Part shown: one piece after another, positions 20,267 to 64,000 of the stretch | Layout of the letters: each line of letters begins with the position of its first letter | How positions within the stretch are numbered: the stretch's first letter is position 1 | NCBI GenBank assembly: GCA_949825065.1 | Contig: OX463842.1 | Coordinates: 6,475,723-6,539,722, forward strand | Length of the DNA: 64,000 nucleotides | Direction of reading: 5' to 3' | Origin: Odontocerum albicorne | Lineage: Eukaryota; Arthropoda; Insecta; Trichoptera; Odontoceridae | Notes under the pieces: model-generated | What the model saw: only the letters and a program-made list of their open reading frames with translations | What the model was told of the DNA's origin: nothing | The model's database searches: none | Program-made: the position numbers and the translations under genes

Positions 20267-20269
20267 GTT

Positions 20270-23375: not shown

Positions 23376-23830
23376 GTATCATTATCCAAATAAAATTTTA
23401 CTTTTTCCGTTGCCATTGCTGACATTTCTGTTGTCGTTTACCTTTTTTTGAATCGGCCTGTCTCGGCGTAGTATTTGAAGACAGCCGGTTACTCCGCCAA
23501 TGCGTCGTAAACTGTAGGGCGATTGATCAAGGCTCGTTTCATCATAATTATTAGTTACATGTCAGGATAATCTGGATCTCTGCGGGCAATCTGGCGACCA
23601 TCTTGCGCAGTCTCGTTCTCAGCACCCTGTCTCCCTTGATGACGTTCCTCCAGGCGTCGTTCACTTTCGAGGCGGCCAGCAGTGAATCTCCGTCGAGTTT
23701 TCTGTGAGCAAAAGAAACATAATTATTAGTTACATGTCAGGATAAAATGAACAAAAAATATACATGAATTAAAACCAAATCCTTCGCATACTATACGATG
23801 CGTCGGTATAAAAAACTTCCGTCGGCTTTG
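23376..23830 (-). pseudogene. Scrambled, diverged edge copy of the F-box unit
   Basis: The exon-2 3' part at about 23400-23552 is diverged from all other units. It is interrupted at 23553-23610 by an intron-1 piece (ATAATTATTAGTTACATGTC) joined to an exon-1 piece (TCTCTGCGGGCAATCTGGCG). Exon-2 5' text and the intron then follow normally to about 23817. There the sequence jumps from AAAAAACTT straight to CCGTCGGCTTTGG, so exon 1 and the promoter region are missing. It cannot encode the protein. Greater divergence is expected at array edges, which exchange little with inner units. Confidence 0.85.
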
Positions 23831-23987
23831 GATTCGGTAATGTTCGGGTCGCGGTGCCATGTTTATCAATGCGGAGCAATATTTCATTTATTTTTATTGA
23901 GTAAAATACGTTAACGACGGCAGTCGTCTCTTCTATCAATATTATTTTTTGCCATTTTTTTTTTTAAATTTAACTATCTCGTACATA

Positions 23988-23993
23988 TTTATT
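23988..23993 (-). terminator. Polyadenylation signal of F-box copy 1
   Basis: AATAAA on the minus strand lies 253 bp past the stop codon of copy 1. The same hexamer sits at the equivalent place in the other units, shifting by a base or two with poly-T length. Confidence 0.55.
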
Positions 23994-24240
23994 CTTATGA
24001 CAATAAAATAAAAATCTCTCTTTTTTTTGTAAATTGATTGACACATTTTGAATCATTATTTACGGTGTCCGTGTAAATCGTCGTCATTTTAGCAGATTTT
24101 TTTTTTGACATTCTTTCGATACACTTATCGTGTAGAGTCAAGGTTTGCATAAAATATTTAAAAAAAAATGTAATAAGTCTCTTGAGTACATTGGTTATCA
24201 TAAATTATTTCAGCCGTCGGCTTTCGTCGTTATCATTATC

Positions 24241-24716
24241 CTAATACAATTTAATTTTTTTTGTAGCCATTGCCATGTCATTTCTGTTGTCGTTTACCCT
24301 TTTTCCGAATCGGCGTCCTGTCCCGGCGTAAGATTTGAAGATAGCCGGTCCCTCCGCCGATGCGTCGTACACTGTAGGGCGATTGATCGAGGCGCGTTCT
24401 ATCTTGCGCAGTCTCGTTCTCAGCACCCTGTCTCCCTTGATGACGTTCCTCCAGGCGTCGTTCACTTTCGAGGCGGCCAACAGTGAATCTCCGTCGAGTT
24501 TTCTGTGAACAAAAGAAACATAATTATAAGTTACATGTCAGGATAAAATGAACAAAAAATATACATGAATTAAAACCAAATCCTTCGCATACTATACGAT
24601 GCGTCGGTATAAAAAACTTACCTGAAGATCATCGAAGTAATCTCTGCGGGCAATCTGGCGACCATGTCACGCATGTCGTACACCATCACGCACAATAAGG
24701 AGAAAAATGAATCCAT
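24241..24716 (-). CDS. F-box-only protein, array copy 1 (reference description)
   Basis: Exon 1 is 24716-24622 and exon 2 is 24502-24241; the 119-nt intron has GTAAGT at its 5' end and CACAG at its 3' end. Joined in phase 2, they give 118 residues. Residues 22-60 fit the F-box: LPAEI, IF, then LDGDSLL, a conserved Val45, Trp49-Arg50, Ile53, and a final Leu-Arg. Residues 4-13 are hydrophobic. The tail (61-118) is basic, with RRFGKR at 95-100 and KKIK at 113-116, possibly nuclear-targeting. There is no LRR, WD40 or Kelch domain. F-box domains bind Skp1 and recruit targets to SCF ubiquitin ligases. The start MDSFF follows an in-frame TAG upstream in most copies. This copy has Ile66-Glu67 where most have Met66-Lys67. 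Expression is unproven. Confidence 0.85.
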
Positions 24717-24758
24717 AATACTTGATTTTGTAAAGAATGTCTACAAAAATCTTTCATG

Positions 24759-24766
24759 AATATATT
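24759..24766 (-). promoter_or_regulatory. TATA-like element of F-box copy 1
   Basis: AATATATT begins 43 bp before the ATG and is present at the same offset in the other units that I checked. A TCAAGT word about 12 bp before the ATG could serve as an initiator. This would give a very short 5' UTR and avoid upstream ATGs. The assignment is by pattern only. Confidence 0.35.
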
Positions 24767-25299
24767 GACTTATTAGCAATTTCAACGCTAGCCCGTTGGA
24801 TTCATCTCGATCGTAACGTAAACACCGCGCGCTAGACATGCGTCTCGCGTACGCTTATATTTTCAACAGTTCGCTTTCCGTCGGCTTTGGATTCGGTAAT
24901 GTTCGGGTCGCGGTGCCATGTTTATCAATGCGGAGCAATATTTCATTTATTTTTATTGAGTAAAATACGTTGACGACGGCAGTCGTCTCTTCTATCAATA
25001 TTATTTTTAGCCATTTTTTTTCAAAATTTAACTATCTCGTACATATTTATTCTTATGACAATAAAATAAAAATCTCTCTTTTTTTTTGTAAATTGATTGA
25101 CACATTTTGAATCATTATTTACGGTGTCCGTGTAAATCGTCGTCATTTTAGCAGATTTTTTTTTTGACATTCTTTCGATACACTTATCGTGTAGAGTCAA
25201 GGTTTGCATAAAATATTTAAAAAAAAATGTAATAAGTCTCTTGAGTACATTGGTTATCATAAATTATTTCAGCCGTCGGCTTTCGTCCTTATCATTATC

Positions 25300-25775
25300 C
25301 TAATACAATTTAATTTTTTTTGTAGCCATTGCCATGTCATTTCTGTTGTCGTTTACCCTTTTTCCGAATCGGCGTCCTGTCCCGGCGTAAGATTTGAAGA
25401 TAGCCGGTCCCTCCGCCGATGCGTCGTACACTGTAGGGCGATTGATCGAGGCGCGTTTCATCTTGCGCAGTCTCGTTCTCAGCACCCTGTCTCCCTTGAT
25501 GACGTTCCTCCAGGCGTCGTTCACTTTCGAGGCGGCCAGCAGTGAATCTCCGTCGAGGTTTCTGTGAACAAAAGAAACATAATTATTAGTTACATGTCAG
25601 GATAAAATGAACAAAAAATATACAGGAATTAAAACCAAATCCTTCGCATACTATACGATGCGTCGGTATAAAAAACTAACCTGAAGATCATCGAAGTAAT
25701 CTCTGCGGGCAATCTGGCGACCATGTCGCGCATGTCGTACACCATCACGCACAATAAGGAGAAAAATGAATCCAT
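25300..25775 (-). CDS. F-box-only protein, array copy 2
   Basis: Exons 25775-25681 and 25561-25300. Met66-Lys67 form. Lys33 is replaced by Asn through a change in the second base-pair of exon 2. The donor is GTTAGT instead of GTAAGT, a weaker but usable site. Its near-twin is copy 4, one dimer period (2,118 bp) away. Confidence 0.85.
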
Positions 25776-26358
25776 AATACTTGATTTTGTAAAGAATGTC
25801 TACGAAAATCTTTCATGAATATATTGACTTATTAGCAATTTCAACGCTAGCCCGTTGGATTCATCTCGACCGTAACGTAAACACCGCGCGCTAGACATGC
25901 GTCTCGCGTACGCTTATGTTTTCAACAGTTCGCTTTCCGTCGGCTTTGGATTCGGTAATGTTCGGGTCGCGGTGCCATGTTTATCAATGCGGAGCAATAT
26001 TTCATTTATTTTTATTGAGTAAAATACGTTAACGACGGCAGTCGTCTCTTCTATCAATATTATTTTTTGCCATTTTTTTTTTTAAATTTAACTATCTCGT
26101 ACATATTTATTCTTATGACAATAAAATAAAAATCTCTCTTTTTTTTGTAAATTGATTGACACATTTTGAATCATTATTTACGGTGTCCGTGTAAATCGTC
26201 GTCATTTTAGCAGATTTTTTTTTTGACATTCTTTCGATACACTTATCGTGTAGAGTCAAGGTTTGCATAAAATATTTAAAAAAAAATGTAATAAGTCTCT
26301 TGAGTACATTGGTTATCATAAATTATTTCAGCCGTCGGCTTTCGTCGTTATCATTATC

Positions 26359-26834
26359 CTAATACAATTTAATTTTTTTTGTAGCCATTGCCATGTCATT
26401 TCTGTTGTCGTTTACCCTTTTTCCGAATCGGCGTCCTGTCCCGGCGTAAGATTTGAAGATAGCCGGTCCCTCCGCCGATGCGTCGTACACTGTAGGGCGA
26501 TTGATCGAGGCGCGTTCTATCTTGCGCAGTCTCGTTCTCAGCACCCTGTCTCCCTTGATGACGTTCCTCCAGGCGTCGTTCACTTTCGAGGCGGCCAACA
26601 GTGAATCTCCGTCGAGTTTTCTGTGAACAAAAGAAACATAATTATAAGTTACATGTCAGGATAAAATGAACAAAAAATATACATGAATTAAAACCAAATC
26701 CTTCGCATACTATACGATGCGTCGGTATAAAAAACTTACCTGAAGATCATCGAAGTAATCTCTGCGGGCAATCTGGCGACCATGTCACGCATGTCGTACA
26801 CCATCACGCACAATAAGGAGAAAAATGAATCCAT
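26359..26834 (-). CDS. F-box-only protein, array copy 3
   Basis: Exons 26834-26740 and 26620-26359. It shares all the diagnostic changes of copy 1: Ile66-Glu67, the TTG leucine codon at residue 40, and the flanking CTCGATCGTAACG variant. It is the other half of a recent 2,118-bp duplication. Confidence 0.85.
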
Positions 26835-27417
26835 AATACTTGATTTTGTAAAGAATGTCTACAAAAATCTTTCATGAATATATTGACTTATTAGCAATTT
26901 CAACGCTAGCCCGTTGGATTCATCTCGATCGTAACGTAAACACCGCGCGCTAGACATGCGTCTCGCGTACGCTTATATTTTCAACAGTTCGCTTTCCGTC
27001 GGCTTTGGATTCGGTAATGTTCGGGTCGCGGTGCCATGTTTATCAATGCGGAGCAATATTTCATTTATTTTTATTGAGTAAAATACGTTGACGACGGCAG
27101 TCGTCTCTTCTATCAATATTATTTTTAGCCATTTTTTTTCAAAATTTAACTATCTCGTACATATTTATTCTTATGACAATAAAATAAAAATCTCTCTTTT
27201 TTTTTGTAAATTGATTGACACATTTTGAATCATTATTTACGGTGTCCGTGTAAATCGTCGTCATTTTAGCAGATTTTTTTTTTGACATTCTTTCGATACA
27301 CTTATCGTGTAGAGTCAAGGTTTGCATAAAATATTTAAAAAAAAATGTAATAAGTCTCTTGAGTACATTGGTTATCATAAATTATTTCAGCCGTCGGCTT
27401 TCGTCCTTATCATTATC

Positions 27418-27893
27418 CTAATACAATTTAATTTTTTTTGTAGCCATTGCCATGTCATTTCTGTTGTCGTTTACCCTTTTTCCGAATCGGCGTCCTGTCC
27501 CGGCGTAAGATTTGAAGATAGCCGGTCCCTCCGCCGATGCGTCGTACACTGTAGGGCGATTGATCGAGGCGCGTTTCATCTTGCGCAGTCTCGTTCTCAG
27601 CACCCTGTCTCCCTTGATGACGTTCCTCCAGGCGTCGTTCACTTTCGAGGCGGCCAGCAGTGAATCTCCGTCGAGTTTTCTGTGAACAAAAGAAACATAA
27701 TTATAAGTTACATGTCAGGATAAAATGAACAAAAAATATACAGGAATTAAAACCAAATCCTTCGCATACTATACGATGCGTCGGTATAAAAAACTAACCT
27801 GAAGATCATCGAAGTAATCTCTGCGGGCAATCTGGCGACCATGTCGCGCATGTCGTACACCATCACGCACAATAAGGAGAAAAATGAATCCAT
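27418..27893 (-). CDS. F-box-only protein, array copy 4
   Basis: Exons 27893-27799 and 27679-27418. Met66-Lys67, Lys33 restored, donor GTTAGT. It matches copy 2 in flanking markers such as ACGTTGACGACGG, but differs at the exon-2 start. This points to a small conversion tract inside the duplicated dimer. Confidence 0.85.
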
Positions 27894-28476
27894 AATACTT
27901 GATTTTGTAAAGAATGTCTACGAAAATCTTTCATGAATATATTGACTTATTAGCAATTTCAACGCTAGCCCGTTGGATTCATCTCGACCGTAACGTAAAC
28001 ACCGCGCGCTAGACATGCGTCTCGCGTACGCTTATGTTTTCAACAGTTCGCTTTCCGTCGGCTTTGGATTCGGTAATGTTCGGGTCGCGGTGCCATGTTT
28101 ATCAATGCGGAGCAATATTTCATTTATTTTTATTGAGTAAAATACGTTAACGACGGCAGTCGTCTCTTCTATCAATATTATTTTTTGCAATTTTTTTTTT
28201 TAAATTTAACTATCTCGTACATATTTATTCTTATGACAATAAAATAAAAATCTCTCTTTTTTTTGTAAATTGATTGACACATTTTGAATCATTATTTACG
28301 GTGTCCGTGTAAATCGTCGTCATTTTAGCAGATTTTTTTTTTGACATTCTTTCGATACACTTATCGTGTAGAGTCAAGGTTTGCATAAAATATTTAAAAA
28401 AAAATGTAATAAGTCTCTTGAGTACATTGGTTATCATAAATTATTTCAGCCGTCGGCTTTCGTCGTTATCATTATC

Positions 28477-28952
28477 CTAATACAATTTAATTTTTTTTGT
28501 AGCCATTGCCATGTCATTTCTGTTGTCGTTTACCCTTTTTCCGAATCGGCGTCCTGTCCCGGCGTAAGATTTGAAGATAGCCGGTCCCTCCGCCGATGCG
28601 TCGTACACTGTAGGGCGATTGATCGAGGCGCGTTCTATCTTGCGCAGTCTCGTTCTCAGCACCCTGTCTCCCTTGATGACGTTCCTCCAGGCGTCGTTCA
28701 CTTTCGAGGCGGCCAGCAGTGAATCTCCGTCGAGGTTTCTGTGAACAAAAGAAACATAATTATTAGTTACATGTCAGGATAAAATGAACAAAAAATATAC
28801 AGGAATTAAAACCAAATCCTTCGCATACTATACGATGCGTCGGTATAAAAAACTAACCTGAAGATCATCGAAGTAATCTCTGCGGGCAATCTGGCGACCA
28901 TGTCGCGCATGTCGTACACCATCACGCACAATAAGGAGAAAAATGAATCCAT
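28477..28952 (-). CDS. F-box-only protein, array copy 5
   Basis: Exons 28952-28858 and 28738-28477. It combines Ile66-Glu67 (as copies 1 and 3) with Asn33 and donor GTTAGT (as copy 2). This mosaic is most simply explained by recombination or gene conversion between unit types. Confidence 0.85.
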
Positions 28953-29535
28953 AATACTTGATTTTGTAAAGAATGTCTACGAAAATCTTTCATGAATATA
29001 TTGACTTATTAGCAATTTCAACGCTAGCCCGTTGGATTCATCTCGACCGTAACGTAAACACCGCGCGCTAGACATGCGTCTCGCGTACGCTTATGTTTTC
29101 AACAGTTCGCTTTCCTGCGGCTTTGGATTCGGTAATGTTCGGGTCGCGGTGCCATGTTTATCAATGCGGAGCAATATTTCATTTATTTTTATTGAGTAAA
29201 ATACGTTAACGACGGCAGTCGTCTCTTCTATCAATATTATTTTTTGCAATTTTTTTTTTTAAATTTAACTATCTCGTACATATTTATTCTTATGACAATA
29301 AAATAAAAATCTCTCTTTTTTTTGTAAATTGATTGACACATTTTGAATCATTATTTACGGTGTCCGTGTAAATCGTCGTCATTTTAGCAGATTTTTTTTT
29401 TGACATTCTTTCGATACACTTATCGTGTAGAGTCAAGGTTTGCATAAAATATTTAAAAAAAAATGTAATAAGTCTCTTGAGTACATTGGTTATCATAAAT
29501 TATTTCAGCCGTCGGCTTTCGTCGTTATCATTATC

Positions 29536-30011
29536 CTAATACAATTTAATTTTTTTTGTAGCCATTGCCATGTCATTTCTGTTGTCGTTTACCCTTTTTC
29601 CGAATCGGCGTCCTGTCCCGGCGTAAGATTTGAAGATAGCCGGTCCCTCCGCCGATGCGTCGTACACTGTAGGGCGATTGATCGAGGCGCGTTCTATCTT
29701 GCGCAGTCTCGTTCTCAGCACCCTGTCTCCCTTGATGACGTTCCTCCAGGCGTCGTTCACTTTCGAGGCGGCCAGCAGTGAATCTCCGTCGAGTTTTCTG
29801 TGAACAAAAGAAACATAATTATAAGTTACATGTCAGGATAAAATTAACAAAAAATATACATGAATTAAAACCAAATCCTTCGCATACTATACGATGCGTC
29901 GGTATAAAAAACTTACCTGAAGATCATCGAAGTAATCTCTGCGGGCAATCTGGCGACCATGTCGCGCATGTCGTACACCATCACGCACAATAAGGAGAAA
30001 AATGAATCCAT
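29536..30011 (-). CDS. F-box-only protein, array copy 6
   Basis: Exons 30011-29917 and 29797-29536. Ile66-Glu67, Lys33 and donor GTAAGT. This is the last unit, reading rightward, with the Ile-Glu pair; all later copies have Met-Lys. The unit to its left has CTGCGGC instead of CGTCGGC in the spacer near 29115. Confidence 0.85.
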
Positions 30012-30592
30012 AATACTTGATTTTGTAAAGAATGTCTACGAAAATCTTTCATGAATATATTGACTTATTAGCAATTTCAACGCTAGCCCGTTGGATTCAT
30101 CTCGACCGTAACGTAAACACCGCGCGCTAGACATGCGTCTCGCGTACGCTTATGTTTTCAACAGTTCGCTTTCCGTCGGCTTTGGATTCGGTAATGTTCG
30201 GGTCGCGGTGCCATGTTTATCAATGCGGAGCAATATTTCATTTATTTTTATTGAGTAAAATACGTTAACGACGGCAGTCGTCTCTTCTATCAATATTATT
30301 TTTTGCCATTTTTTTTTTTAAATTTAACTATCTCGTACATATTTATTCTTATGACAATAAAATAAAAATCTCTCTTTTTTTTGTAAATTGATTGACACAT
30401 TTTGAATCATTATTTACGGTGTCCGTGTAAATCGTCGTCATTTTAGCAGATTTTTTTTGACATTCTTTCGATACACTTATCGTGTAGAGTCAAGGTTTGC
30501 ATAAAATATTTAAAAAAAAATGTAATAAGTCTCTTGAGTACATTGGTTATCATAAATTATTTCAGCCGTCGGCTTTCGTCGTTATCATTATC

Positions 30593-31068
30593 CTAATACA
30601 ATTTAATTTTTTTTGTAGCCATTGCCATGTCATTTCTGTTGTCGTTTACCCTTTTTCCGAATCGGCGTCCTGTCCCGGCGTAAGATTTGAAGATAGCCGG
30701 TCCCTCCGCCGATGCGTCGTACACTGTAGGGCGATTGATCGAGGCGCGTTTCATCTTGCGCAGTCTCGTTCTCAGCACCCTGTCTCCCTTGATGACGTTC
30801 CTCCAGGCGTCGTTTACTTTCGAGGCGGCCAGCAGTGAATCTCCGTCGAGTTTTCTGTGAACAAAAGAAACATAATTATTAGTTACATGTCAGGATAAAA
30901 TGAACAAAAAATATACATGAATTAAAACCAAATCCTTCGCATACTATACGATGCGTCGGTATAAAAAACTTACCTGAAGATCATCGAAGTAATCTCTGCG
31001 GGCAATCTGGCGACCATGTCGCGCATGTCGTACACCATCACGCACAATAAGGAGAAAAATGAATCCAT
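30593..31068 (-). CDS. F-box-only protein, array copy 7
   Basis: Exons 31068-30974 and 30854-30593. Majority protein sequence. A synonymous GTA replaces GTG at Val45 (shared with copy 9). The poly-T run in the 3' region is two bases shorter than usual, which accounts for the 1,057-bp spacing. Confidence 0.85.
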
Positions 31069-31652
31069 AATACTTGATTTTGTAAAGAATGTCTACGAAA
31101 ATCTTTCATGAATATATTGACTTATTAGCAATTTCAACGCTAGCCCGTTGGATTCATCTCGACCGTAACGTAAACACCGCGCGCTAGACATGCGTCTCGC
31201 GTACGCTTATGTTTTCAACAGTTCGCTTTCCGTCGGCTTTGGATTCGGTAATGTTCGGGTCGCGGTGCCATGTTTATCAATGCGGAGCAATATTTCATTT
31301 ATTTTTATTGAGTAAAATACGTTAACGACGGTAGTCGTCTCTTCTATCAATATTATTTTTTGCCATTTTTTTTTCAAAATTTAACTATCTCGTACATCTT
31401 TATTCTTATGACAATAAAATAAAAATCTCTCTTTTTTTTTGTAAATTGATTGACACATTTTGAATCATTATTTACGGTGTCCGTGTAAATCGTCGTCATT
31501 TTAGCAGATTTTTTTTTTGACATTCTTTCGATACACTTATCGTGTAGAGTCAAGGTTTGCATAAAATATTTTAAAAAAAATGTAATAAGTCTCTTGAGTA
31601 CATTGGTTATCATAAATTATTTCAGCCGTCGGCTTTCGTCCTTATCATTATC

Positions 31653-32128
31653 CTAATACAATTTAATTTTTTTTGTAGCCATTGCCATGTCATTTCTGTT
31701 GTCGTTTACCCTTTTTCCGAATCGGCGTCCTGTCCCGGCGTAAGATTTGAAGATAGCCGGTCCCTCCGCCGATGCGTCGTACACTGTAGGGCGATTGATC
31801 GAGGCGCGTTTCATCTTGCGCAGTCTCGTTCTCAGCACCCTGTCTCCCTTGATGACGTTCCTCCAGGCGTCGTTCACTTTCGAGGCGGCCAGCAGTGAAT
31901 CTCCGTCGAGTTTTCTGTGAACAAAAGAAACATAATTATTAGTTACATGTCAGGATAAAATGTACAAAAAATATACATGAATTAAAACCAAATCCTTCGC
32001 ATACTATACGATGCGTCGGTATAAAAAACTTACCTGAAGATCATCGAAGTAATCTCTGCGGGCAATCTGGCGACCATGTCGCGCATGTCGTACACCATCA
32101 CGCACAATAAGGAGAAAAATGAATCCAT
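31653..32128 (-). CDS. F-box-only protein, array copy 8
   Basis: Exons 32128-32034 and 31914-31653. Majority protein sequence and splice sites. The intron has a TGTACAAAAAA variant instead of TGAACAAAAAA, shared with copies 10 to 14. Confidence 0.85.
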
Positions 32129-34827: not shown

Positions 34828-35455
34828 CTAATACAATTTAATTTTTTTTGTAGCCATTGCCATGTCATTTCTGTTGTCGTTTACCCTTTTTCCGAATCGG
34901 CGTCCTGTCCCGGCGTAAGATTTGAAGATAGCCGGTCCCTCCGCCGATGCGTCGTACACTGTAGGGCGATTGATCGAGGCGCGTTTCATCTTGCGCAGTC
35001 TCGTTCTCAGCACCCTGTCTCCCTTGATGACGTTCCTCCAGGCGTCGTTCACTTTCGAGGCGGCCAGCAGTGAATCTCCGTCGAGTTTTCTGTGAACAAA
35101 AGAAACATAATTATTAGTTACATGTCAGGATAAAATGTACAAAAAATATACATGAATTAAAACCAAATCCTTCGCATACTATACGATGCGTCGGTATAAA
35201 AAACTTACCTGAAGATCATCGAAGTAATCTCTGCGGGCAATCTGGCGACCATGTCGCGCATGTCGTACACCATCACGCACAATAAGGAGAAAAATGAATC
35301 CATAATACTTGATTTTGTAAAGAATGTATACTATACGATGCGTCGGTATAAAAAACTTACCTGAAGATCATCGAAGTAATCTCTGCGGGCAATCTGGCGA
35401 CCATGTCGCGCATGTCGTACACCATCACGCACAATAAGGAGAAAAATGAATCCAT
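34828..35455 (-). CDS. F-box-only protein, array copy 11, with duplicated exon 1
   Basis: Exon 2 is 35089-34828. There are two exon-1 copies, 35303-35209 and 35455-35361, each with ATG and a GTAAGT donor, because 152 bp are duplicated in tandem. The promoter-proximal copy (35455) has the normal upstream region. The inner one is preceded by intron sequence. The joint at about 35327-35340 is GTATACTATACGATG, where short TATAC homology could have mediated the event. The outer exon can still splice to exon 2, so a normal protein is possible. The outer copy carries TCG in place of the upstream in-frame stop. Confidence 0.8.
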
Positions 35456-36037
35456 AATACTTGATTTTGTAAAGAATGTCGACGAAAATCTTTCATGAAT
35501 ATATTGACTTATTAGCAATTTCAACGCTAGCCCGTTGGATTCATCTCGACCGTAACGTAAACACCGCGCGCTAGACATGCGTCTCGCGTACGCTTATGTT
35601 TTCAACAGTTCGCTTTCCGTCGGCTTTGGATTCGGTAATGTTCGGGTCGCGGTGCCATGTTTATCAATGCGGAGCAATATTTCATTTATTTTTATTGAGT
35701 AAAATACGTTAACGACGGCAGTCGTCTCTTCTATCAATATTATTTTTTGCCATTTTTTTTTCAAAATTTAACTATCTCGTACATATTTATTCTTATGACA
35801 ATAAAATAAAAATCTCTCTTTTTTTTGTAAATTGATTGACACATTTTGAATCATTATTTACGGTGTCCGTGTAAATCGTCGTCATTTTAGCAGATTTTTT
35901 TTTGACATTCTTTCGATACACTTATCGTGTAGAGTCAAGGTTTGCATAAAATATTTAAAAAAAAATGTAATAAGTCTCTTGAGTACATTGGTTATCATAA
36001 ATTATTTCAGCCGTCGGCTTTCGTCCTTATCATTATC

Positions 36038-36687
36038 CTAATACAATTTAATTTTTTTTGTAGCCATTGCCATGTCATTTCTGTTGTCGTTTACCCTTTT
36101 TCCGAATCGGCGTCCTGTCCCGGCGTAAGATTTGAAGATAGCCGGTCCCTCCGCCGATGCGTCGTACACTGTAGGGCGATTGATCGAGGCGCGTTTCATC
36201 TTGCGCAGTCTCGTTCTCAGCACCCTGTCTCCCTTGATGACGTTCCTCCAGGCGTCGTTCACTTTCGAGGCGGCCAGCAGTGAATCTCCGTCGAGTTTTC
36301 TGTGAACAAAAGAAACATAATTATTAGTTACATGTCAGGATAAAATGTACAAAAAATATACATGAATTAAAACCAAATCCTTCGCATACTATACGATGCG
36401 TCGGTATAAAAAACTTACCTGAAGATCATCGAAGTAATCTCTGCGGGCAATCTGGCGACCATGTCGCGCATGTCGTACACCATCACGCACAATAAGGAGA
36501 AAAATGAATCCATAATACTTGATTTTGTAAAGAATGTATACGAAAATCTTTCATGAATATATTGACTTATTAGCAATTTCAACGCTAGCCCGTTGGATTC
36601 ATCTCGACCGTAACGTAAACACCGCGCGCTAGACATGTCGCGCATGTCGTACACCATCACGCACAATAAGGAGAAAAATGAATCCAT
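36038..36687 (-). CDS. F-box-only protein, array copy 12, with fused N-terminal duplication
   Basis: Exon 2 is 36299-36038. Exon 1 is enlarged by a duplication of about 176 bp joined at GACATG near 36634-36640. Because the usual upstream TAG is TAT here, one frame runs from the outer ATG at 36687 through former 5' leader into the normal start at 36513 and on to the donor at 36419. Translation from 36687 would give about 176 residues with the MDSFFSLLCVMVYDMRDM block twice. Starting at 36513 would give the standard 118. The F-box is unchanged in both. Confidence 0.75.
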
Positions 36688-37271
36688 AATACTTGATTTT
36701 GTAAAGAATGTCTACGAAAATCTTTCATGAATATATTGACTTATTAGCAATTTCAACGCTAGCCCGTTGGATTCATCTCGACCGTAACGTAAACACCGCG
36801 CGCTAGACATGCGTCTCGCGTACGCTTATGTTTTCAACAGTTCGCTTTCCGTCGGCTTTGGATTCGGTAATGTTCGGGTCGCGGTGCCATGTTTATCAAT
36901 GCGGAGCAATATTTCATTTATTTTTATTGAGTAAAATACGTTAACGACGGTAGTCGTCTCTTCTATCAATATTATTTTTTGCCATTTTTTTTTCAAAATT
37001 TAACTATCTCGTACATCTTTATTCTTATGACAATAAAATAAAAATCTCTCTTTTTTTTTGTAAATTGATTGACACATTTTGAATCATTATTTACGGTGTC
37101 CGTGTAAATCGTCGTCATTTTAGCAGATTTTTTTTTTGACATTCTTTCGATACACTTATCGTGTAGAGTCAAGGTTTGCATAAAATATTTTAAAAAAAAT
37201 TTAATAAGTCTATTGAGTACATTGGTTATCATAAATTATTTCAGCCGTCGGCTTTCGTCCTTATCATTATC

Positions 37272-39389: not shown

Positions 39390-39865
39390 CTAATACAATT
39401 TAATTTTTTTTGTAGCCATTGCCATGTCATTTCTGTTGTCGTTTACCCTTTTTCCGAATCAGCGTCCTGTCCCGGCGTAAGATTTGAAGATAGCCGGTCC
39501 CTCCGCCGATGCGTCGTACACTGTAGGGCGATTGATCGAGGCGCGTTTCATCTTGCGCAGTCTCGTTCTCAGCACCCTGTCTCCCTTGATGACGTTCCTC
39601 CAGGCGTCGTTCACTTTCGAGGCGGCCAGCAGTGAATCTCCGTCGAGTTTTCTGTGAACAAAAGAAACATAATTATAAGTTACATGTCAGGATAAAATTA
39701 ACAAAAAATATACATGAATTAAAACCAAATCCTTCGCATACTATACGATGCGTCGGTATAAAAAACTTACCTGAAGATCATCGAAGTAATCTCTGCGGGC
39801 AATCTGGCGACCATGTCGCGCATGTCGTACACCATCACGCACAATAAGGAGAAAAATGAATCCAT
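39390..39865 (-). pseudogene. F-box-only gene, array copy 15, nonsense mutation R96*
   Basis: Exons 39865-39771 and 39651-39390 are structurally normal, but codon 96 is TGA (39461-39459) instead of CGA, a C-to-T change at a CpG. The product would stop after 95 residues. The F-box is kept, but the basic RRFGKR...KKIK tail is lost. It is the only copy in the window with a premature stop. The leader carries TCG in place of the usual upstream TAG. Confidence 0.85.
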
Positions 39866-54669: not shown

Positions 54670-55253
54670 AATACTTGATTTTGTAAAGAATGTCTACGAA
54701 AATCTTTCATGAATATATTGACTTATTAGCAATTTCAACGCTAGCCCGTTGGATTCATCTCGACCGTAACGTAAACACCGCGCGCTAGACATGCGTCTCG
54801 CGTACGCTTATGTTTTCAACAGTTCGCTTTCCGTCGGCTTTGGATTCGGTAATGTTCGGGTCGCGGTGCCATGTTTATTAATGCGGAGCAATATTTCATT
54901 TATTTTTATTGAGTAAAATACGTTAACGACGGTAGTCGTCTCTTCTATCAATATTATTTTTTGCCATTTTTTTTTTTTAAATTTAACTATCTCGTACATA
55001 TTTATTCTTATGACAATAAAATAAAAATCTCTCTTTTTTTTGTAAATTGATTGACACATTTTGAATCATTATTTACGGTGTCCGTGTAAATCGTCGTCAT
55101 TTTAGCAGATTTTTTTTTTGACATTCTTTCGATACACTTATCGTGTAGAGTCAAGGTTTGCATAAAATATTTTTAAAAAAATGTAATAAGTCTCTTGAGT
55201 ACATTGGTTATCATAAATTATTTCAGCCGTCGGCTTTCGTCGTTATCATTATC

Positions 55254-55729
55254 CTAATACAATTTAATTTTTTTTGTAGCCATTGCCATGTCATTTCTGT
55301 TGTCATTTACCCTTTTTCCGAATCGGCGTCCTGTCCCGGCGTAAGATTTGAAGATAGCCGGTCCCTCCGCCGATGCGTCGTACACTGTAGGGCGATTGAT
55401 CGAGGCGCGTTTCATCTTGCGCAGTCTCGTTCTCAGCACCCTGTCTCCCTTGATGACGTTCCTCCAGGCGTCGTTCACTTTCGAGGCGGCCAGCAGTGAA
55501 TCTCCGTCGAGTTTTCTGTGAACAAAAGAAACATAATTATTAGTTACATGTCAGGATAAAATGAACAAAAAATATACATGAATTAAAACCAAATCCTTCG
55601 CATACTATACGATGCGTCGGTATAAAAAACTTACCTGAAGATCATCGAAGTAATCTCTGCGGGCAATCTGGCGACCATGTCGCGCATGTCGTACACCATC
55701 ACGCACAATAAGGAGAAAAATGAATCCAT
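55254..55729 (-). CDS. F-box-only protein, array copy 30
   Basis: Exons 55729-55635 and 55515-55254. Majority protein with a private synonymous AAT at Asn102. Confidence 0.85.
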
Positions 55730-56312
55730 AATACTTGATTTTGTAAAGAATGTCTACGAAAATCTTTCATGAATATATTGACTTATTAGCAATTTCAACG
55801 CTAGCCCGTTGGATTCATCTCGACCGTAACGTAAACACCGCGCGCTAGACATGCGTCTCGCGTACGCTTATGTTTTCAACAGTTCGCTTTCCGTCGGCTT
55901 TGGATTCGGTAATGTTCGGGTCGCGGTGCCATGTTTATCAATGCGGAGCAATATTTCATTTATTTTTATTGAGTAAAATACGTTAACGACGGCAGTCGTC
56001 TCTTCTATCAATATTATTTTTTGCCATTTTTTTTTTTTAATTTAACTATCTCGTACATATTTATTCTTATGACAATAAAATAAAAATCTCTCTTTTTTTT
56101 GTAAATTGATTGACACATTTTGAATCATTATTTACGGTGTCCGTGTAAATCGTCGTCATTTTAGCAGATTTTTTTTTTGACATTCTTTCGATACACTTAT
56201 CGTGTAGAGTCAAGGTTTGCATAAAATATTTTTAAAAAAATGTAATAAGTCTCTTGAGTACATTGGTTATCATAAATTATTTCAGCCGTCGGCTTTCGTC
56301 GTTATCATTATC

Positions 56313-56788
56313 CTAATACAATTTAATTTTTTTTGTAGCCATTGCCATGTCATTTCTGTTGTCGTTTACCCTTTTTCCGAATCGGCGTCCTGTCCCGGCG
56401 TAAGATTTGAAGATAGCCGGTCCCTCCGCCGATGCGTCGTACACTGTAGGGCGATTGATCGAGGCGCGTTTCATCTTGCGCAGTCTCGTTCTCAGCACCC
56501 TGTCTCCCTTGATGACGTTCCTCCAGGCGTCGTTCACTTTCGAGGCGGCCAGCAGTGAATCTCCGTCGAGTTTTCTGTGAACAAAAGAAACATAATTATT
56601 AGTTACATGTCAGGATAAAATGAACAAAAAATATACATGAATTAAAACCAAATCCTTCGCATACTATACGATGCGTCGGTATAAAAAACTTACCTGAAGA
56701 TCATCGAAGTAATCTCTGCGGGCAATCTGGCGACCATGTCGCGCATGTCGTACACCATCACGCACAATAAGGAGAAAAATGAATCCAT
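56313..56788 (-). CDS. F-box-only protein, array copy 31
   Basis: Exons 56788-56694 and 56574-56313. Majority protein; twin of copy 29 within the second dimeric block. Confidence 0.85.
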
Positions 56789-57372
56789 AATACTTGATTT
56801 TGTAAAGAATGTCTACGAAAATCTTTCATGAATATATTGACTTATTAGCAATTTCAACGCTAGCCCGTTGGATTCATCTCGACCGTAACGTAAACACCGC
56901 GCGCTAGACATGCGTCTCGCGTACGCTTATGTTTTCAACAGTTCGCTTTCCGTCGGCTTTGGATTCGGTAATGTTCGGGTCGCGGTGCCATGTTTATTAA
57001 TGCGGAGCAATATTTCATTTATTTTTATTGAGTAAAATACGTTAACGACGGTAGTCGTCTCTTCTATCAATATTATTTTTTGCCATTTTTTTTTTTTAAA
57101 TTTAACTATCTCGTACATATTTATTCTTATGACAATAAAATAAAAATCTCTCTTTTTTTTGTAAATTGATTGACACATTTTGAATCATTATTTACGGTGT
57201 CCGTGTAAATCGTCGTCATTTTAGCAGATTTTTTTTTTGACATTCTTTCGATACACTTATCGTGTAGAGTCAAGGTTTGCATAAAATATTTTTAAAAAAA
57301 TGTAATAAGTCTCTTGAGTACATTGGTTATCATAAATTATTTCAGCCGTCGGCTTTCGTCGTTATCATTATC

Positions 57373-57848
57373 CTAATACAATTTAATTTTTTTTGTAGCC
57401 ATTGCCATGTCATTTCTGTTGTCGTTTACCCTTTTTCCGAATCGGCGTCCTGTCCCGGCGTAAGATTTGAAGATAGCCGGTCCCTCCGCCGATGCGTCGT
57501 ACACTGTAGGGCGATTGATCGAGGCGCGTTTCATCTTGCGCAGTCTCGTTCTCAGCACCCTGTCTCCCTTGATGACGTTCCTCCAGGCGTCGTTCACTTT
57601 CGAGGCGGCCAGCAGTGAATCTCCGTCGAGTTTTCTGTGAACAAAAGAAACATAATTATAAGTTACATGTCAGGATAAAATTAACAAAAAATATACATGA
57701 ATTAAAACCAAATCCTTCGCATACTATACGATGCGTCGGTATAAAAAACTTACCTGAAGATCATCGAAGTAATCTCTGCGGGCAATCTGGCGACCATGTC
57801 GCGCATGTCGTACACCATCACGCACAATAAGGAGAAAAATGAATCCAT
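57373..57848 (-). CDS. F-box-only protein, array copy 32
   Basis: Exons 57848-57754 and 57634-57373. Majority protein. Its intron switches to the AAAATTAACAAAA form that characterises copies 33 to 38, so a block boundary lies inside this unit. Confidence 0.85.
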
Positions 57849-58431
57849 AATACTTGATTTTGTAAAGAATGTCTACGAAAATCTTTCATGAATATATTGA
57901 CTTATTAGCAATTTCAACGCTAGCCCGTTGGATTCATCTCGACCGTAACGTAAACACCGCGCGCTAGACATGCGTCTCGCGTACGCTTATGTTTTCAACA
58001 GTTCGCTTTCCGTCGGCTTTGGATTCGGTAATGTTCGGGTCGCGGTGCCATGTTTATCAATGCGGAGCAATATTTCATTTATTTTTATTGAGTAAAATAC
58101 GTTAACGACGGTAGTCGTCTCTTCTATCAATATTATTTTTTGCCATTTTTTTTTCAAAATTTAACTATCTCGTACATATTTATTCTTATGACAATAAAAT
58201 AAAAATCTCTCTTTTTTTTTGTAAATTGATTGACACATTTTGAATCATTATTTACGGTGTCCGTGTAAATCGTCGTCATTTTAGCAGATTTTTTTTTGAC
58301 ATTCTTTCGATACACTTATCGTGTAGAGTCAAGGTTTGCATAAAATATTAAAAAAAAAATGTAATAAGTCTCTTGAGTACATTGGTTATCATAAATTATT
58401 TCAGCCGTCGGCTTTCGTCCTTATCATTATC

Positions 58432-58907
58432 CTAATACAATTTAATTTTTTTTGTAGCCATTGCCATGTCATTTCTGTTGTCGTTTACCCTTTTTCCGAA
58501 TCGGCGTCCTGTCCCGGCGTAAGATTTGAAGATAGAAGGTCTCTCCGCCGATGCGTCGTACACTGTAGGGCGATTGATCGAGGCGCGTTTCATCTTGCGC
58601 AGTCTCGTTCTCAGCACCCTGTCTCCCTTGATGACGTTCCTCCAGGCGTCGTTCACTTTCGAGGCGGCCAGCAGTGAATCTCCGTCGAGTTTTCTGTGAA
58701 CAAAAGAAACATAATTATAAGTTACATGTCAGGATAAAATTAACAAAAAATATACATGAATTAAAACCAAATCCTTCGCATACTATACGATGCGTCGGTA
58801 TAAAAAACTTACCTGAAGATCATCGAAGTAATCTCTGCGGGCAATCTGGCGACCATGTCGCGCATGTCGTACACCATCACGCACAATAAGGAGAAAAATG
58901 AATCCAT
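58432..58907 (-). CDS. F-box-only protein, array copy 33
   Basis: Exons 58907-58813 and 58693-58432. Two clustered replacements in the tail, Gly83 to Arg and Ala85 to Ser, arise from a short run of neighbouring base changes near 58536-58542. The leader stop is TCG, with an open extension from 59030. Confidence 0.85.
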
Positions 58908-59488
58908 AATACTTGATTTTGTAAAGAATGTCGACGAAAATCTTTCATGAATATATTGACTTATTAGCAATTTCAACGCTAGCCCGTTGGATTCATCTCG
59001 ACCGTAACGTAAACACCGCGCGCTAGACATGCGTCTCGCGTACGCTTATGTTTTCAACAGTTCGCTTTCCGTCGGCTTTGGATTCGGTAATGTTCGGGTC
59101 GCGGTGCCATGTTTATCAATGCGGAGCAATATTTCATTTATTTTTATTGAGTAAAATACGTTAACGACGGCAGTCGTCTCTTCTATCAATATTATTTTTT
59201 GCCATTTTTTTTTTTAAATTTAACTATCTCGTACATATTTATTCTTATGACAATAAAATAAAAATCTCTCTTTTTTTTGTAAATTGATTGACACATTTTG
59301 AATCATTATTTACGGTGTCCGTGTAAATCGTCGTCATTTTAGCAGATTTTTTTTGACATTCTTTCGATACACTTATCGTGTAGAGTCAAGGTTTGCATAA
59401 AATATTTAAAAAAAAATGTAATAAGTCTCTTGAGTACATTGGTTATCATAAATTATTTCAGCCGTCGGCTTTCGTCCTTATCATTATC

Positions 59489-59964
59489 CTAATACAATTT
59501 AATTTTTTTTGTAGCCATTGCCATGTCATTTCTGTTGTCGTTTACCCTTTTTCCGAATCGGCGTCCTGTCCCGGCGTAAGATTTGAAGATAGCCGGTCCC
59601 TCCGCCGATGCGTCGTACACTGTAGGGCGATTGATCGAGGCGCGTTTCATCTTGCGCAGTCTCGTTCTCAGCACCCTGTCTCCCTTGATGACGTTCCTCC
59701 AGGCGTCGTTCACTTTCGAGGCGGCCAGCAGTGAATCTCCGTCGAGTTTTCTGTGAACAAAAGAAACATAATTATAAGTTACATGTCAGGATAAAATTAA
59801 CAAAAAATATACATGAATTAAAACCAAATCCTTCGCATACTATACGATGCGTCGGTATAAAAAACTTACCTGAAGATCATCGAAGTAATCTCTGCGGGCA
59901 ATCTGGCGACCATGTCGCGCATGTCGTACACCATCACGCACAATAAGGAGAAAAATGAATCCAT
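59489..59964 (-). CDS. F-box-only protein, array copy 34
   Basis: Exons 59964-59870 and 59750-59489. Majority protein. The 3' poly-T run is shortened, giving 1,057-bp spacing to copy 33. Confidence 0.85.
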
Positions 59965-60547
59965 AATACTTGATTTTGTAAAGAATGTCTACGAAAATCT
60001 TTCATGAATATATTGACTTATTAGCAATTTCAACGCTAGCCCGTTGGATTCATCTCGACCGTAACGTAAACACCGCGCGCTAGACATGCGTCTCGCGTAC
60101 GCTTATGTTTTCAACAGTTCGCTTTCCGTCGGCTTTGGATTCGGTAATGTTCGGGTCGCGGTGCCATGTTTATCAATGCGGAGCAATACTTCATTTATTT
60201 TTATTGAGTAAAATACGTTAACGACGGTAGTCGTCTCTTCTATCAATATTATTTTTTGCCATTTTTTTTTCAAAATTTAACTATCTCGTACATATTTATT
60301 CTTATGACAATAAAATAAAAATCTCTCTTTTTTTTTGTAAATTGATTGACACATTTTGAATCATTATTTACGGTGTCCGTGTAAATCGTCGTCATTTTAG
60401 CAGATTTTTTTTTTGACATTCTTTCGATACACTTATCGTGTAGAGTCAAGGTTTGCATAAAATATTTAAAAAAAATGTAATAAGTCTCTTGAGTACATTG
60501 GTTATCATAAATTATTTCAGCCGTCGGCTTTCGTCCTTATCATTATC

Positions 60548-61023
60548 CTAATACAATTTAATTTTTTTTGTAGCCATTGCCATGTCATTTCTGTTGTCGT
60601 TTACCCTTTTTCCGAATCGGCGTCCTGTCCCGGCGTAAGATTTGAAGATAGCCGGTCCCTCCGCCGATGCGTCGTACACTGTAGGGCGATTGATCGAGGC
60701 GCGTTTCATCTTGCGCAGTCTCGTTCTCAGCACCCTGTCTCCCTTGATGACGTTCCTCCAGGCGTCGTTCACTTTCGAGGCGGCCAGCAGTGAATCTCCG
60801 TCGAGTTTTCTGTGAACAAAAGAAACATAATTATAAGTTACATGTCAGGATAAAATTAACAAAAAATATACATGAATTAAAACCAAATCCTTCGCATACT
60901 ATACGATGCGTCGGTATAAAAAACTTACCTGAAGATCATCGAAGTAATCTCTGCGGGCAATCTGGCGACCATGTCGCGCATGTCGTACACCATCACGCAC
61001 AATAAGGAGAAAAATGAATCCAT
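60548..61023 (-). CDS. F-box-only protein, array copy 35
   Basis: Exons 61023-60929 and 60809-60548. First of four units (35-38) that I cannot tell apart except for the exon-1 deletion of copy 37. They share GCAATACTTC, GACGGTAGTC and a shortened A-run near the 3' end. Confidence 0.85.
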
Positions 61024-61606
61024 AATACTTGATTTTGTAAAGAATGTCTACGAAAATCTTTCATGAATATATTGACTTATTAGCAATTTCAACGCTAGCC
61101 CGTTGGATTCATCTCGACCGTAACGTAAACACCGCGCGCTAGACATGCGTCTCGCGTACGCTTATGTTTTCAACAGTTCGCTTTCCGTCGGCTTTGGATT
61201 CGGTAATGTTCGGGTCGCGGTGCCATGTTTATCAATGCGGAGCAATACTTCATTTATTTTTATTGAGTAAAATACGTTAACGACGGTAGTCGTCTCTTCT
61301 ATCAATATTATTTTTTGCCATTTTTTTTTCAAAATTTAACTATCTCGTACATATTTATTCTTATGACAATAAAATAAAAATCTCTCTTTTTTTTTGTAAA
61401 TTGATTGACACATTTTGAATCATTATTTACGGTGTCCGTGTAAATCGTCGTCATTTTAGCAGATTTTTTTTTTGACATTCTTTCGATACACTTATCGTGT
61501 AGAGTCAAGGTTTGCATAAAATATTTAAAAAAAATGTAATAAGTCTCTTGAGTACATTGGTTATCATAAATTATTTCAGCCGTCGGCTTTCGTCCTTATC
61601 ATTATC

Positions 61607-62082
61607 CTAATACAATTTAATTTTTTTTGTAGCCATTGCCATGTCATTTCTGTTGTCGTTTACCCTTTTTCCGAATCGGCGTCCTGTCCCGGCGTAAGAT
61701 TTGAAGATAGCCGGTCCCTCCGCCGATGCGTCGTACACTGTAGGGCGATTGATCGAGGCGCGTTTCATCTTGCGCAGTCTCGTTCTCAGCACCCTGTCTC
61801 CCTTGATGACGTTCCTCCAGGCGTCGTTCACTTTCGAGGCGGCCAGCAGTGAATCTCCGTCGAGTTTTCTGTGAACAAAAGAAACATAATTATAAGTTAC
61901 ATGTCAGGATAAAATTAACAAAAAATATACATGAATTAAAACCAAATCCTTCGCATACTATACGATGCGTCGGTATAAAAAACTTACCTGAAGATCATCG
62001 AAGTAATCTCTGCGGGCAATCTGGCGACCATGTCGCGCATGTCGTACACCATCACGCACAATAAGGAGAAAAATGAATCCAT
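61607..62082 (-). CDS. F-box-only protein, array copy 36
   Basis: Exons 62082-61988 and 61868-61607. Majority protein, apparently identical to copy 35 through the whole 1,059-bp unit. Confidence 0.85.
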
Positions 62083-62665
62083 AATACTTGATTTTGTAAA
62101 GAATGTCTACGAAAATCTTTCATGAATATATTGACTTATTAGCAATTTCAACGCTAGCCCGTTGGATTCATCTCGACCGTAACGTAAACACCGCGCGCTA
62201 GACATGCGTCTCGCGTACGCTTATGTTTTCAACAGTTCGCTTTCCGTCGGCTTTGGATTCGGTAATGTTCGGGTCGCGGTGCCATGTTTATCAATGCGGA
62301 GCAATACTTCATTTATTTTTATTGAGTAAAATACGTTAACGACGGTAGTCGTCTCTTCTATCAATATTATTTTTTGCCATTTTTTTTTCAAAATTTAACT
62401 ATCTCGTACATATTTATTCTTATGACAATAAAATAAAAATCTCTCTTTTTTTTTGTAAATTGATTGACACATTTTGAATCATTATTTACGGTGTCCGTGT
62501 AAATCGTCGTCATTTTAGCAGATTTTTTTTTTGACATTCTTTCGATACACTTATCGTGTAGAGTCAAGGTTTGCATAAAATATTTAAAAAAAATGTAATA
62601 AGTCTCTTGAGTACATTGGTTATCATAAATTATTTCAGCCGTCGGCTTTCGTCCTTATCATTATC

Positions 62666-63111
62666 CTAATACAATTTAATTTTTTTTGTAGCCATTGCCA
62701 TGTCATTTCTGTTGTCGTTTACCCTTTTTCCGAATCGGCGTCCTGTCCCGGCGTAAGATTTGAAGATAGCCGGTCCCTCCGCCGATGCGTCGTACACTGT
62801 AGGGCGATTGATCGAGGCGCGTTTCATCTTGCGCAGTCTCGTTCTCAGCACCCTGTCTCCCTTGATGACGTTCCTCCAGGCGTCGTTCACTTTCGAGGCG
62901 GCCAGCAGTGAATCTCCGTCGAGTTTTCTGTGAACAAAAGAAACATAATTATAAGTTACATGTCAGGATAAAATTAACAAAAAATATACATGAATTAAAA
63001 CCAAATCCTTCGCATACTATACGATGCGTCGGTATAAAAAACTTACCTGAAGATCATCGAAGTAATCTCTGCGGGCAATCGGGCGCACAATAAGGAGAAA
63101 AATGAATCCAT
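62666..63111 (-). CDS. F-box protein, array copy 37, in-frame exon-1 deletion
   Basis: Exons 63111-63047 (65 nt instead of 95) and 62927-62666. Thirty bases are missing around 63081-63085, where GGGCAATC is followed directly by GGGCGCACAA. The deletion stays in frame and removes ten residues, joining LLC to ARLPAE. The hydrophobic/acidic segment before the F-box is lost, while the F-box and tail are intact. The predicted product is 108 residues. Confidence 0.82.
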
Positions 63112-63694
63112 AATACTTGATTTTGTAAAGAATGTCTACGAAAATCTTTCATGAATATATTGACTTATTAGCAATTTCAACGCTAGCCCGTTGGATTCAT
63201 CTCGACCGTAACGTAAACACCGCGCGCTAGACATGCGTCTCGCGTACGCTTATGTTTTCAACAGTTCGCTTTCCGTCGGCTTTGGATTCGGTAATGTTCG
63301 GGTCGCGGTGCCATGTTTATCAATGCGGAGCAATACTTCATTTATTTTTATTGAGTAAAATACGTTAACGACGGTAGTCGTCTCTTCTATCAATATTATT
63401 TTTTGCCATTTTTTTTTCAAAATTTAACTATCTCGTACATATTTATTCTTATGACAATAAAATAAAAATCTCTCTTTTTTTTTGTAAATTGATTGACACA
63501 TTTTGAATCATTATTTACGGTGTCCGTGTAAATCGTCGTCATTTTAGCAGATTTTTTTTTTGACATTCTTTCGATACACTTATCGTGTAGAGTCAAGGTT
63601 TGCATAAAATATTTAAAAAAAATGTAATAAGTCTCTTGAGTACATTGGTTATCATAAATTATTTCAGCCGTCGGCTTTCGTCCTTATCATTATC

Positions 63695-64000
63695 CTAATA
63701 CAATTTAATTTTTTTTGTAGCCATTGCCATGTCATTTCTGTTGTCGTTTACCCTTTTTCCGAATCGGCGTCCTGTCCCGGCGTAAGATTTGAAGATAGCC
63801 GGTCCCTCCGCCGATGCGTCGTACACTGTAGGGCGATTGATCGAGGCGCGTTTCATCTTGCGCAGTCTCGTTCTCAGCACCCTGTCTCCCTTGATGACGT
63901 TCCTCCAGGCGTCGTTCACTTTCGAGGCGGCCAGCAGTGAATCTCCGTCGAGTTTTCTGTGAACAAAAGAAACATAATTATAAGTTACATGTCAGGATAA
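63695..64000 (-). CDS. F-box-only protein, array copy 38, cut by the window end
   Basis: Exon 2 (63956-63695) is complete with the majority sequence. The acceptor and the start of the intron are visible, but exon 1 would lie beyond 64000. The array therefore continues to the right. Confidence 0.8.

Follow-up and report, generated by a model that had tools for sequence, protein, structure and literature searches.

A head-to-tail array of about 263 small two-exon F-box genes in Odontocerum albicorne

The array and its gene unit

In this work we have analysed a 64,000-nucleotide stretch of DNA (C8:6475723-6539722, referred to here as the window) from the 1.287-Gb genome of the insect Odontocerum albicorne. 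As befits an insect, the genome gave 55 matches to 7tm_6, an insect-specific odorant-receptor family; the lepidopteran 30K lipoprotein family gave none, a negative that is no proof of its absence. From position 23377 to its right end the window is occupied by copies of a small F-box gene, and the features on which the following account draws are these:

23377..64000 within the window, minus strand: F-box gene array with a 1,059-bp unit in tandem, period from autocorrelation and extent from BLAST tiling
23377..23867, minus strand: left-end terminal copy, degenerate and rearranged
27164..27169, minus strand: AATAAA of the example unit, poly(A)-signal-like, about 247 nt past the stop codon
27418..27679, minus strand: exon 2 of the example unit, stop codon TAG
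27680..27798, minus strand: intron of the example unit, 119 nt, GT-AG; its donor reads GTTAGT instead of GTAAGT
27799..27893, minus strand: exon 1 of the example unit, 95 bp, ATG at 27893, A at -3 and G at +4
27935..27943, minus strand: TATA-like element AATATATTC, 50 bp upstream of the ATG, a putative promoter element
35176..35479, minus strand: 152-bp internal tandem duplication with a second exon 1
36460..36811, minus strand: 174-bp internal tandem duplication with a second exon-1 start
39390..39865, minus strand: gene cut short to 95 aa by a stop at codon 96, ATG at 39865
62666..63111, minus strand: gene for 108 aa, shortened by an in-frame deletion of 30 bp ahead of the F-box, ATG at 63111
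63271..64000, minus strand: 38th unit, truncated by the window's right end (partial intron, exon 2 and 3' part)

The original prediction described at least 38 tandem units of 1,059 bp, all in one direction and running off the window, and this proved to be about right. Autocorrelation of the window peaks at 1,059 bp, a single unit used as a BLAST query tiles positions 23377-64000 with every match on the minus strand, and we count 37 complete head-to-tail genes, a 38th cut by the edge and one degenerate terminal copy. There are 39 exon-1 starts in the window; two of them (35455 and 36687) are extras made by the internal tandem duplications, so that the complete genes number 37. In the left terminal copy the upstream region is fused to the intron and the pieces are shuffled, and its final 162 bp are only about 85% similar to the array. 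Beyond the window the array continues for about 248 kb, to approximately C8:6,787,232, and its total length is about 288 kb or about 263 units, of which 218 were counted as unit anchors and the last 45 or so were extrapolated by sampling. With 218 anchors and 191 full-length genes among 217 over 264 kb, the locus has the kilobase-sized unit, the complete ORFs and the long head-to-tail arrangement of a coding megasatellite. Arrays of this kind are generally difficult to assemble, and this is the only point in favour of an assembly artefact, which we regard as scarcely credible: 159 distinct sequences occur among 216 units, in which private variants are interspersed with shared ones, a 10-kb retroelement is inserted inside the array, the two ends enter different sequences and not a single N occurs in the 264 kb of array sequence.

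As the example unit (ATG at 27893) we chose one which encodes the consensus protein. The predicted gene model, two exons with a 119-nt intron and a product of 118 aa, holds for 35 of the 37 window genes, which encode 118 aa with GT-AG introns; in one of these 35 the intron is 109 nt long. Among 216 aligned units the 9-base donor matches the consensus in 208 and the 10-base acceptor in 214. An upstream region and a polyadenylation signal had also been claimed for each unit, and both were found. The TATA-like element, an initiator-like GACATTC downstream of it at -25 and the start context are identical to the consensus in 216/216 aligned units, and AATAAA at +247 is likewise present in all 216. 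The RNA fold of the intron is nothing unusual (z +0.93), and scanning the window with Rfam and for tRNAs yielded nothing.

The F-box product and its predicted partner Skp1

A protein profile search with the 118-residue product bore out the proposed F-box, since both Pfam families scored above their cut-offs: PF12937 with 31.1 bits (cut-off 24.3, residues 20-62) and PF00646 with 27.0 bits (cut-off 20.5, residues 21-59). The domain (residues 20-62) straddles the splice junction at residues 32/33, and the intron is supported by the fact that the F-box becomes whole only across the splice site. F-box families are the only Pfam families that match. The product has no recognised substrate-binding domain, and the F-box is followed by a basic tail of about 56 residues; AlphaFold modelled the exon-2 part alone with low confidence (mean pLDDT 66.9), with helices over residues 4-38 and 62-82 of the modelled part. 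In a collection of 5.8 billion proteins none of 14 candidates was a homologue at E up to 1, and the PDB chains gave none at E up to 10, although we assume that the protein collections searched are poor in insect proteins. A single pattern match in IMG/VR was judged not to be a relative. From its sequence the product would be classed as an orphan F-box protein, and its F-box is expected to bind Skp1.

Could such a protein be a salivary effector? The SSGP-71 effectors of the Hessian fly carry an F-box plus LRRs, are secreted and have diversified. They are described as a large family of insect F-box proteins, and the F-box in an insect protein is what the array shares with them. Unlike them, it encodes an F-box only, with no LRR by Pfam at E up to 1, and its copies are uniform and in tandem rather than diversified; moreover, charged residues occur within the first 19 residues of the product. 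The suggestion of an effector locus found no support, and we consider a secreted effector of the SSGP-71 type highly implausible.

A Skp1 profile search of the genome, with 8/8 candidates scored, gave one match, an intact 162-aa ORF which lies 2.0 Mb from the array on the same chromosome. With a single match, co-amplification of Skp1 was not seen; the profile searches run exon by exon, so that split copies could escape, and the split F-boxes of the array itself went unlisted in the PF12937 search. That search gave 23 exon matches, and no close paralogue was found among the 20 of them that were compared, the best reaching 9.1 bits (Fbxw7-like by our reading). In 14 control genomes neither the PF12937 nor the Skp1 search gave a match. 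One Skp1 match set against about 263 F-box units makes titration of Skp1 possible.

The third codon positions of the array genes have a GC content (GC3) of 0.65, against a GC of 0.33 in the non-coding part of the unit. This would fit translational selection in an AT-rich unit and, together with the self-contained layout of each transcription unit, an ordinary physiological need for dose, in which some tissue requires a large pulse of the protein (for example for target turnover in the embryo or germline), as with histone arrays. The pooled GC3 of the 20 other F-box exons is lower, 0.48, but in individual exons it lies between 0.15 and 0.93. The failure to find a homologue is a poor fit to a conserved housekeeping need, even though the collections may hold few insect proteins, and we judge this explanation rather unlikely.

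We also looked for partners of the array. Neither a conflict partner nor a repressor array appeared among the 150 of 415 and 40 of 406 candidates scored, all listed matches being on C8; the array's own units filled these lists and could mask a distant repressor array or the founder gene. Neither the unit itself nor the ORF lists of the flanks (23 kb on the left and 16 kb on the right) yielded a recognisable second gene; three flank ORFs were run against Pfam, and genes with introns could have been overlooked. By our reading of the ORF lists, both flanks consist mostly of transposon remains. These results bear on the possibility that the array is the antidote or suppressor half of a toxin-antidote element, in the manner of the KSS antidotes in Caenorhabditis tropicalis. 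KSS-1 and KSS-2 are described as fast-evolving F-box proteins that act through SCF in genetic conflict, and F-box antidotes are reported there from worms, with one cited for rice (PMC12680543). The KSS antidotes, however, are partners of toxin genes and carry a solenoid at the C-terminus, as described for KSS-1, for which 118 aa are too short, whereas no partner of the insect gene was recognised. An antidote is in our view very improbable.

Variation among the units

It had been stressed that the frame survives in 37 of 38 units. This is about right, as the frame is uninterrupted in 36 of the 37 complete window genes, but the emphasis was too strong. In the window pN/pS is 0.29 (p=0.012); over 216 aligned units it is 0.58 (p=0.07), a mild depletion of nonsynonymous alleles. 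Nonsense alleles over these units are not scarce (5 observed versus about 2 expected from 14.1 sites x 0.144 alleles per non-coding site), indel events per base, by our count, are about as frequent in exons as in non-coding DNA, and amplification within the array has extended to dead copies. A coding A8 run is unchanged in 37/37 window units, while four downstream A/T runs that we examined, one of them also A8, all vary; this constancy is not unique to the coding run, because the two intron T6 runs are also invariant wherever they could be matched (34 and 28 of 37 units).

Is the array, then, a neutral coding satellite, produced by runaway unequal crossing-over of one gene, with most copies silent or redundant and kept intact by recent homogenisation? 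The whole-array pN/pS, the nonsense alleles, the similar indel densities and the amplified dead copies all speak for it, as do a mean pairwise difference between units of 0.8% and seven runs of four units which recur nearly unchanged elsewhere in the array. Against it stand the lower pN/pS of the window and a deficit of altered copies, 26 of 217 where a rough neutral expectation would have 19% broken (binomial p=0.002; p=0.003 in the window, in tests that treat as independent units which are not). All aligned units also keep their promoter-like, start and poly(A) elements, which argues against neutrality, although allele density in the upstream region is only slightly reduced (0.124 per site, versus about 0.15 in the intron and downstream). 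Youth and homogenisation may explain most of the intactness of the genes, and we give a neutral origin appreciable, though minority, weight.

A possible role in dose and comparison with known arrays

The reading that we favour, with a little short of even confidence, is that the locus is a young protein-coding megasatellite which raises the dose of an orphan Skp1-adaptor protein. According to this model, an orphan F-box gene of small size, equipped with a single intron, a poly(A) signal and promoter-like elements of its own, would have expanded into the head-to-tail array, and the uniformity of the copies suggests that exchange between them keeps them alike. The product would bind Skp1 by its F-box. 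Because it has no substrate-binding domain, only the basic tail, action by dose is expected: many copies could yield a burst of Skp1-occupying adaptor, which would act as a specialised SCF ligase or as a competitor of other F-box proteins. The weakest step is the last one, that the extreme copy number may reflect selection for dose under genetic conflict, as proposed for Stellate.

The Stellate genes of Drosophila melanogaster contain introns, and their product is related to the CK2 beta subunit. The resemblance to Stellate that had been pointed out extends to unit size, copy number and the tandem layout of a short gene, but not to the product, which by Pfam matches F-box families only and not CK2 beta; X linkage, testis expression and a Y-linked repressor are features of the Stellate system itself. 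Its unit is given as about 1,250 bp and its euchromatic alleles as 15-50 to 150-400 copies, and work cited in the same source reports that deletion of nearly all X-linked copies left drive in place (PMC9741089). The human RS447/USP17 (DUB-3) array likewise has a kilobase-sized unit with a complete gene in a long head-to-tail array. It differs in being mammalian, with a 4,746-bp unit and a 1,593-bp deubiquitinase ORF, whereas the insect unit encodes an F-box adaptor with no USP match by Pfam. RS447 is described with 20-103 copies, each unit carrying a complete ubiquitin-pathway gene, and with 20 of 23 chromosome-4 sequences intact; among the works cited there, one has a functional promoter in its title and another is quoted for similar protein levels from differing copy numbers (PMC2874809). 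On our best reading the insect array is homologous to neither, alike as the layouts are.

A stronger version would make the array a dose-driven selfish locus, in which about 263 minimal F-box copies would saturate, in the germline, the product of an apparently single Skp1 gene and bias transmission. We consider this unlikely, and the idea of dose and drive is weakened by the comparators themselves, given the survival of drive after Stellate deletion and the similar RS447 protein levels despite copy number. If it were true, a resistant Skp1 allele could be co-inherited with the array, as Skp1 lies 2.0 Mb away on the same chromosome.

To our knowledge, hundreds of intact copies are found in few coding megasatellites. 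We found no F-box megasatellite in the literature searched, as judged by titles and the beginnings of abstracts. In the passages available of a paper on Drosophila X/Y co-amplification, F-box, Skp and ubiquitin do not occur (PMC6690552), and a paper on transposons and F-box genes ties F-box genes in Caenorhabditis to hybrid incompatibility (PMC12062965). The uniform units of the present array let selection on single copies be measured against drift, and here the answer is mixed. The F-box array and the single Skp1 match share a chromosome. Of the two best comparators, Stellate points to genetic conflict and RS447/USP17 to the ubiquitin system, and the insect array touches both themes.

The repeated gene and its product

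Each unit carries one gene on the minus strand, with exons of 95 and 262 bp (stop included) and an intron of 119 nt, encoding 118 residues. There are 39 exon-1 starts in the window, and since two of them are extra copies from internal duplications of 152 and 174 bp, 37 genes are complete; besides these, the window edge cuts one further gene, and the array's terminal copy is degenerate. The 118 codons with GT-AG introns are kept in 35 of the 37, the other two having a stop at codon 96 and a 30-bp in-frame deletion, respectively. We also aligned 216 units from the window and the next 200 kb to its right (264 kb in all, numbered from the window start and called here the joined scale), omitting the unit that carries a ~10-kb insertion. 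The promoter-like elements are intact: the TATA-like AATATATTC at -50, the initiator-like GACATTC at -25 and the start context match the consensus in all 216 units, and AATAAA is found at +247 in every one of them. The 9-base donor matches in 208 and the 10-base acceptor in 214. Judged from its sequence, each unit appears to have all the parts of a transcription unit, its promoter elements being putative. The GC content of third positions is 0.65, compared with 0.33 in the non-coding part of the unit. The observed/expected ratio of CpG is 1.8 in the unit (2.17 when only the upstream and downstream parts are taken) and 1.0 in the left flank.

The original prediction had taken the product for an F-box protein, and a profile search with the 118 residues bore this out, as both Pfam models scored above their cut-offs (F-box-like 31.1 bits against 24.3, F-box 27.0 against 20.5; residues 20-62). 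Residues 32/33, where the two exons join, fall inside the domain, an arrangement that independently supports the intron. The protein is of 13.5 kDa and basic (pI 10.4), with the first 19 residues acidic. Up to E=1 Pfam gave no further domain apart from F-box_4, which stayed below threshold, and the 56-residue tail matched no known domain at the same limit. Searches of three collections (a set of 5.8 billion proteins, PDB chains and IMG/VR) found no homologue, and there was no close relative among the 20 other F-box exons of the genome that were compared, of 23 found.

Extent and surroundings of the array

The assembly has 1,287,057,991 bases in 1,241 contigs, and C8, the scaffold carrying the array, is 53.8 Mb long; the window corresponds to C8:6475723-6539722. 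The genome gave 55 matches to 7tm_6, an odorant-receptor family specific to insects, and is on that ground an insect's. The 1,059-bp period starts at window position 23377 and runs rightwards to the window edge. On the joined scale we counted 218 unit anchors between 23867 and 263310, which share a single orientation, and the 264 kb contained neither opposite-strand units nor N bases. Further to the right the extent was judged from short sampled stretches. All seven from C8:6,760,001-6,785,100 contain units about 98% identical to the query unit, the one at C8:6,788,001 has just a 40-bp unit fragment at its start, and no units were found in those at C8:6,792,001, 6,796,001 and 6,800,001 or in eight from C8:6,850,001-7,800,001. 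The final unit in register has no exon 1 and extends to about C8:6,787,232. The array is therefore about 288 kb long and comprises about 263 units: to the 218 anchors that were counted, extrapolation over a further 48 kb adds ~45, at one unit per 1,059 bp.

Features around and within the array (window coordinates unless marked C8)
781-908 and 1840-2013: 28-bp minisatellites
5002-5883: mariner-type transposase open reading frame (Pfam Transposase_1, HTH_48)
16204-16950, plus strand: open frame of 248 aa, with a sub-threshold TPR match only
19711-20268: 22-bp satellite in 25 copies, at 3 kb from the left end of the array
C8 ~6653629-6663601 (joined scale 177907-187879): insertion of ~10 kb that interrupts one unit
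C8:6,787,973-6,788,040: diverged unit fragment, 68 bp

The open frame at 16204-16950 is a possible gene, and the flank around it looks rich in transposon remains. The ~10-kb insertion lies between the gene and its upstream region, at a distance of about 50-60 bp from the ATG. From reading its translations we named a jockey-like LINE and a Ty3/gypsy retrotransposon; the latter has 337-bp terminal repeats identical to each other, and its insertion is therefore young.

Homogenisation, dead copies and selection

The units have been homogenised recently. There are 159 distinct sequences among the 216, and neighbours are slightly more alike (7.2 differences) than distant units (about 9-10). Window alleles comprise 9 non-silent (one nonsense) and 10 silent changes, giving a pN/pS of 0.29 (p=0.012). 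Could the array nevertheless be a neutral coding satellite? This serious rival stays plausible in view of the pN/pS of 0.58 (p=0.07) over the whole alignment of 216 units, where 32 nonsynonymous, 18 silent and 5 nonsense alleles occur, of a mean difference between units of 0.82%, and of a density of non-homopolymer indels in the exons (~6 events in 357 bp) about equal to that elsewhere in the unit (~11 in 702 bp; 13 if the two large duplications are counted). The coding A8 run never varies among the 37 window units, in contrast to four downstream runs; nor do the two intron T6 runs vary among the window units matched.

Of the 217 genes in the 264 kb, an exon-1 start was recognised in 213 (215 hits less two duplicates), and in the other four a deletion of 131 bp reaches into exon 1. 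In 191 of the 217 the product has 118 aa and the intron is GT-AG. The 26 altered genes, two of them altered by in-frame deletion, compare with ~19% broken expected from non-coding rates (binomial p=0.002, though the units are non-independent). Sixteen of the 22 altered genes that retain the exon-1 start lie at 123-175 kb on the joined scale. Seven copies have a stop after residue 2. Beyond the window, at 141000-166000 on the joined scale, such copies recur in pairs; in three pairs the spacing is 1,984 bp and a unit shortened to 926 bp stands in between, so dead copies multiplied too. Taken together, these data indicate that selection per copy is weak at most, and most of the uniformity may be explained by youth and exchange between copies.

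Known systems and the possible role of the array

The layout resembles that of Stellate, with units of about 1,250 bp in 15-400 copies, and that of the human RS447 megasatellite (USP17), with 20-103 copies, as given in PMC9741089 and PMC2874809, respectively. However, the product here is an F-box protein, and the array thus belongs to neither. The same papers cite near-complete deletion of X-linked Stellate copies as leaving drive in place, and differently sized RS447 arrays as yielding similar protein levels. In worm toxin-antidote elements F-box proteins serve as antidotes, according to PMC12680543; for the present F-box gene no such partner was recognised, either in the unit or among the open frames listed for the two flanks. 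A limited literature search found no F-box megasatellite.

When all eight candidates were scored, one Skp1-family match was found in the genome, outside the window:
C8:4496995-4497138: Skp1-family match within an intact 162-aa open reading frame
This search ran exon by exon and was negative in its 14 control genomes; within these limits it revealed no co-amplification of Skp1. The match shares its chromosome with the array and lies 2.0 Mb to the left of it; this proximity may well be chance, given that C8 makes up 4% of the genome and that the two positions were compared post hoc.

Given its F-box domain, the product would bind Skp1. More tentatively, it would act by dose, either as a dedicated SCF adaptor or as a competitor for Skp1. 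Most speculatively of all, the copy number might be driven by conflict, in the form of drive or drive suppression.
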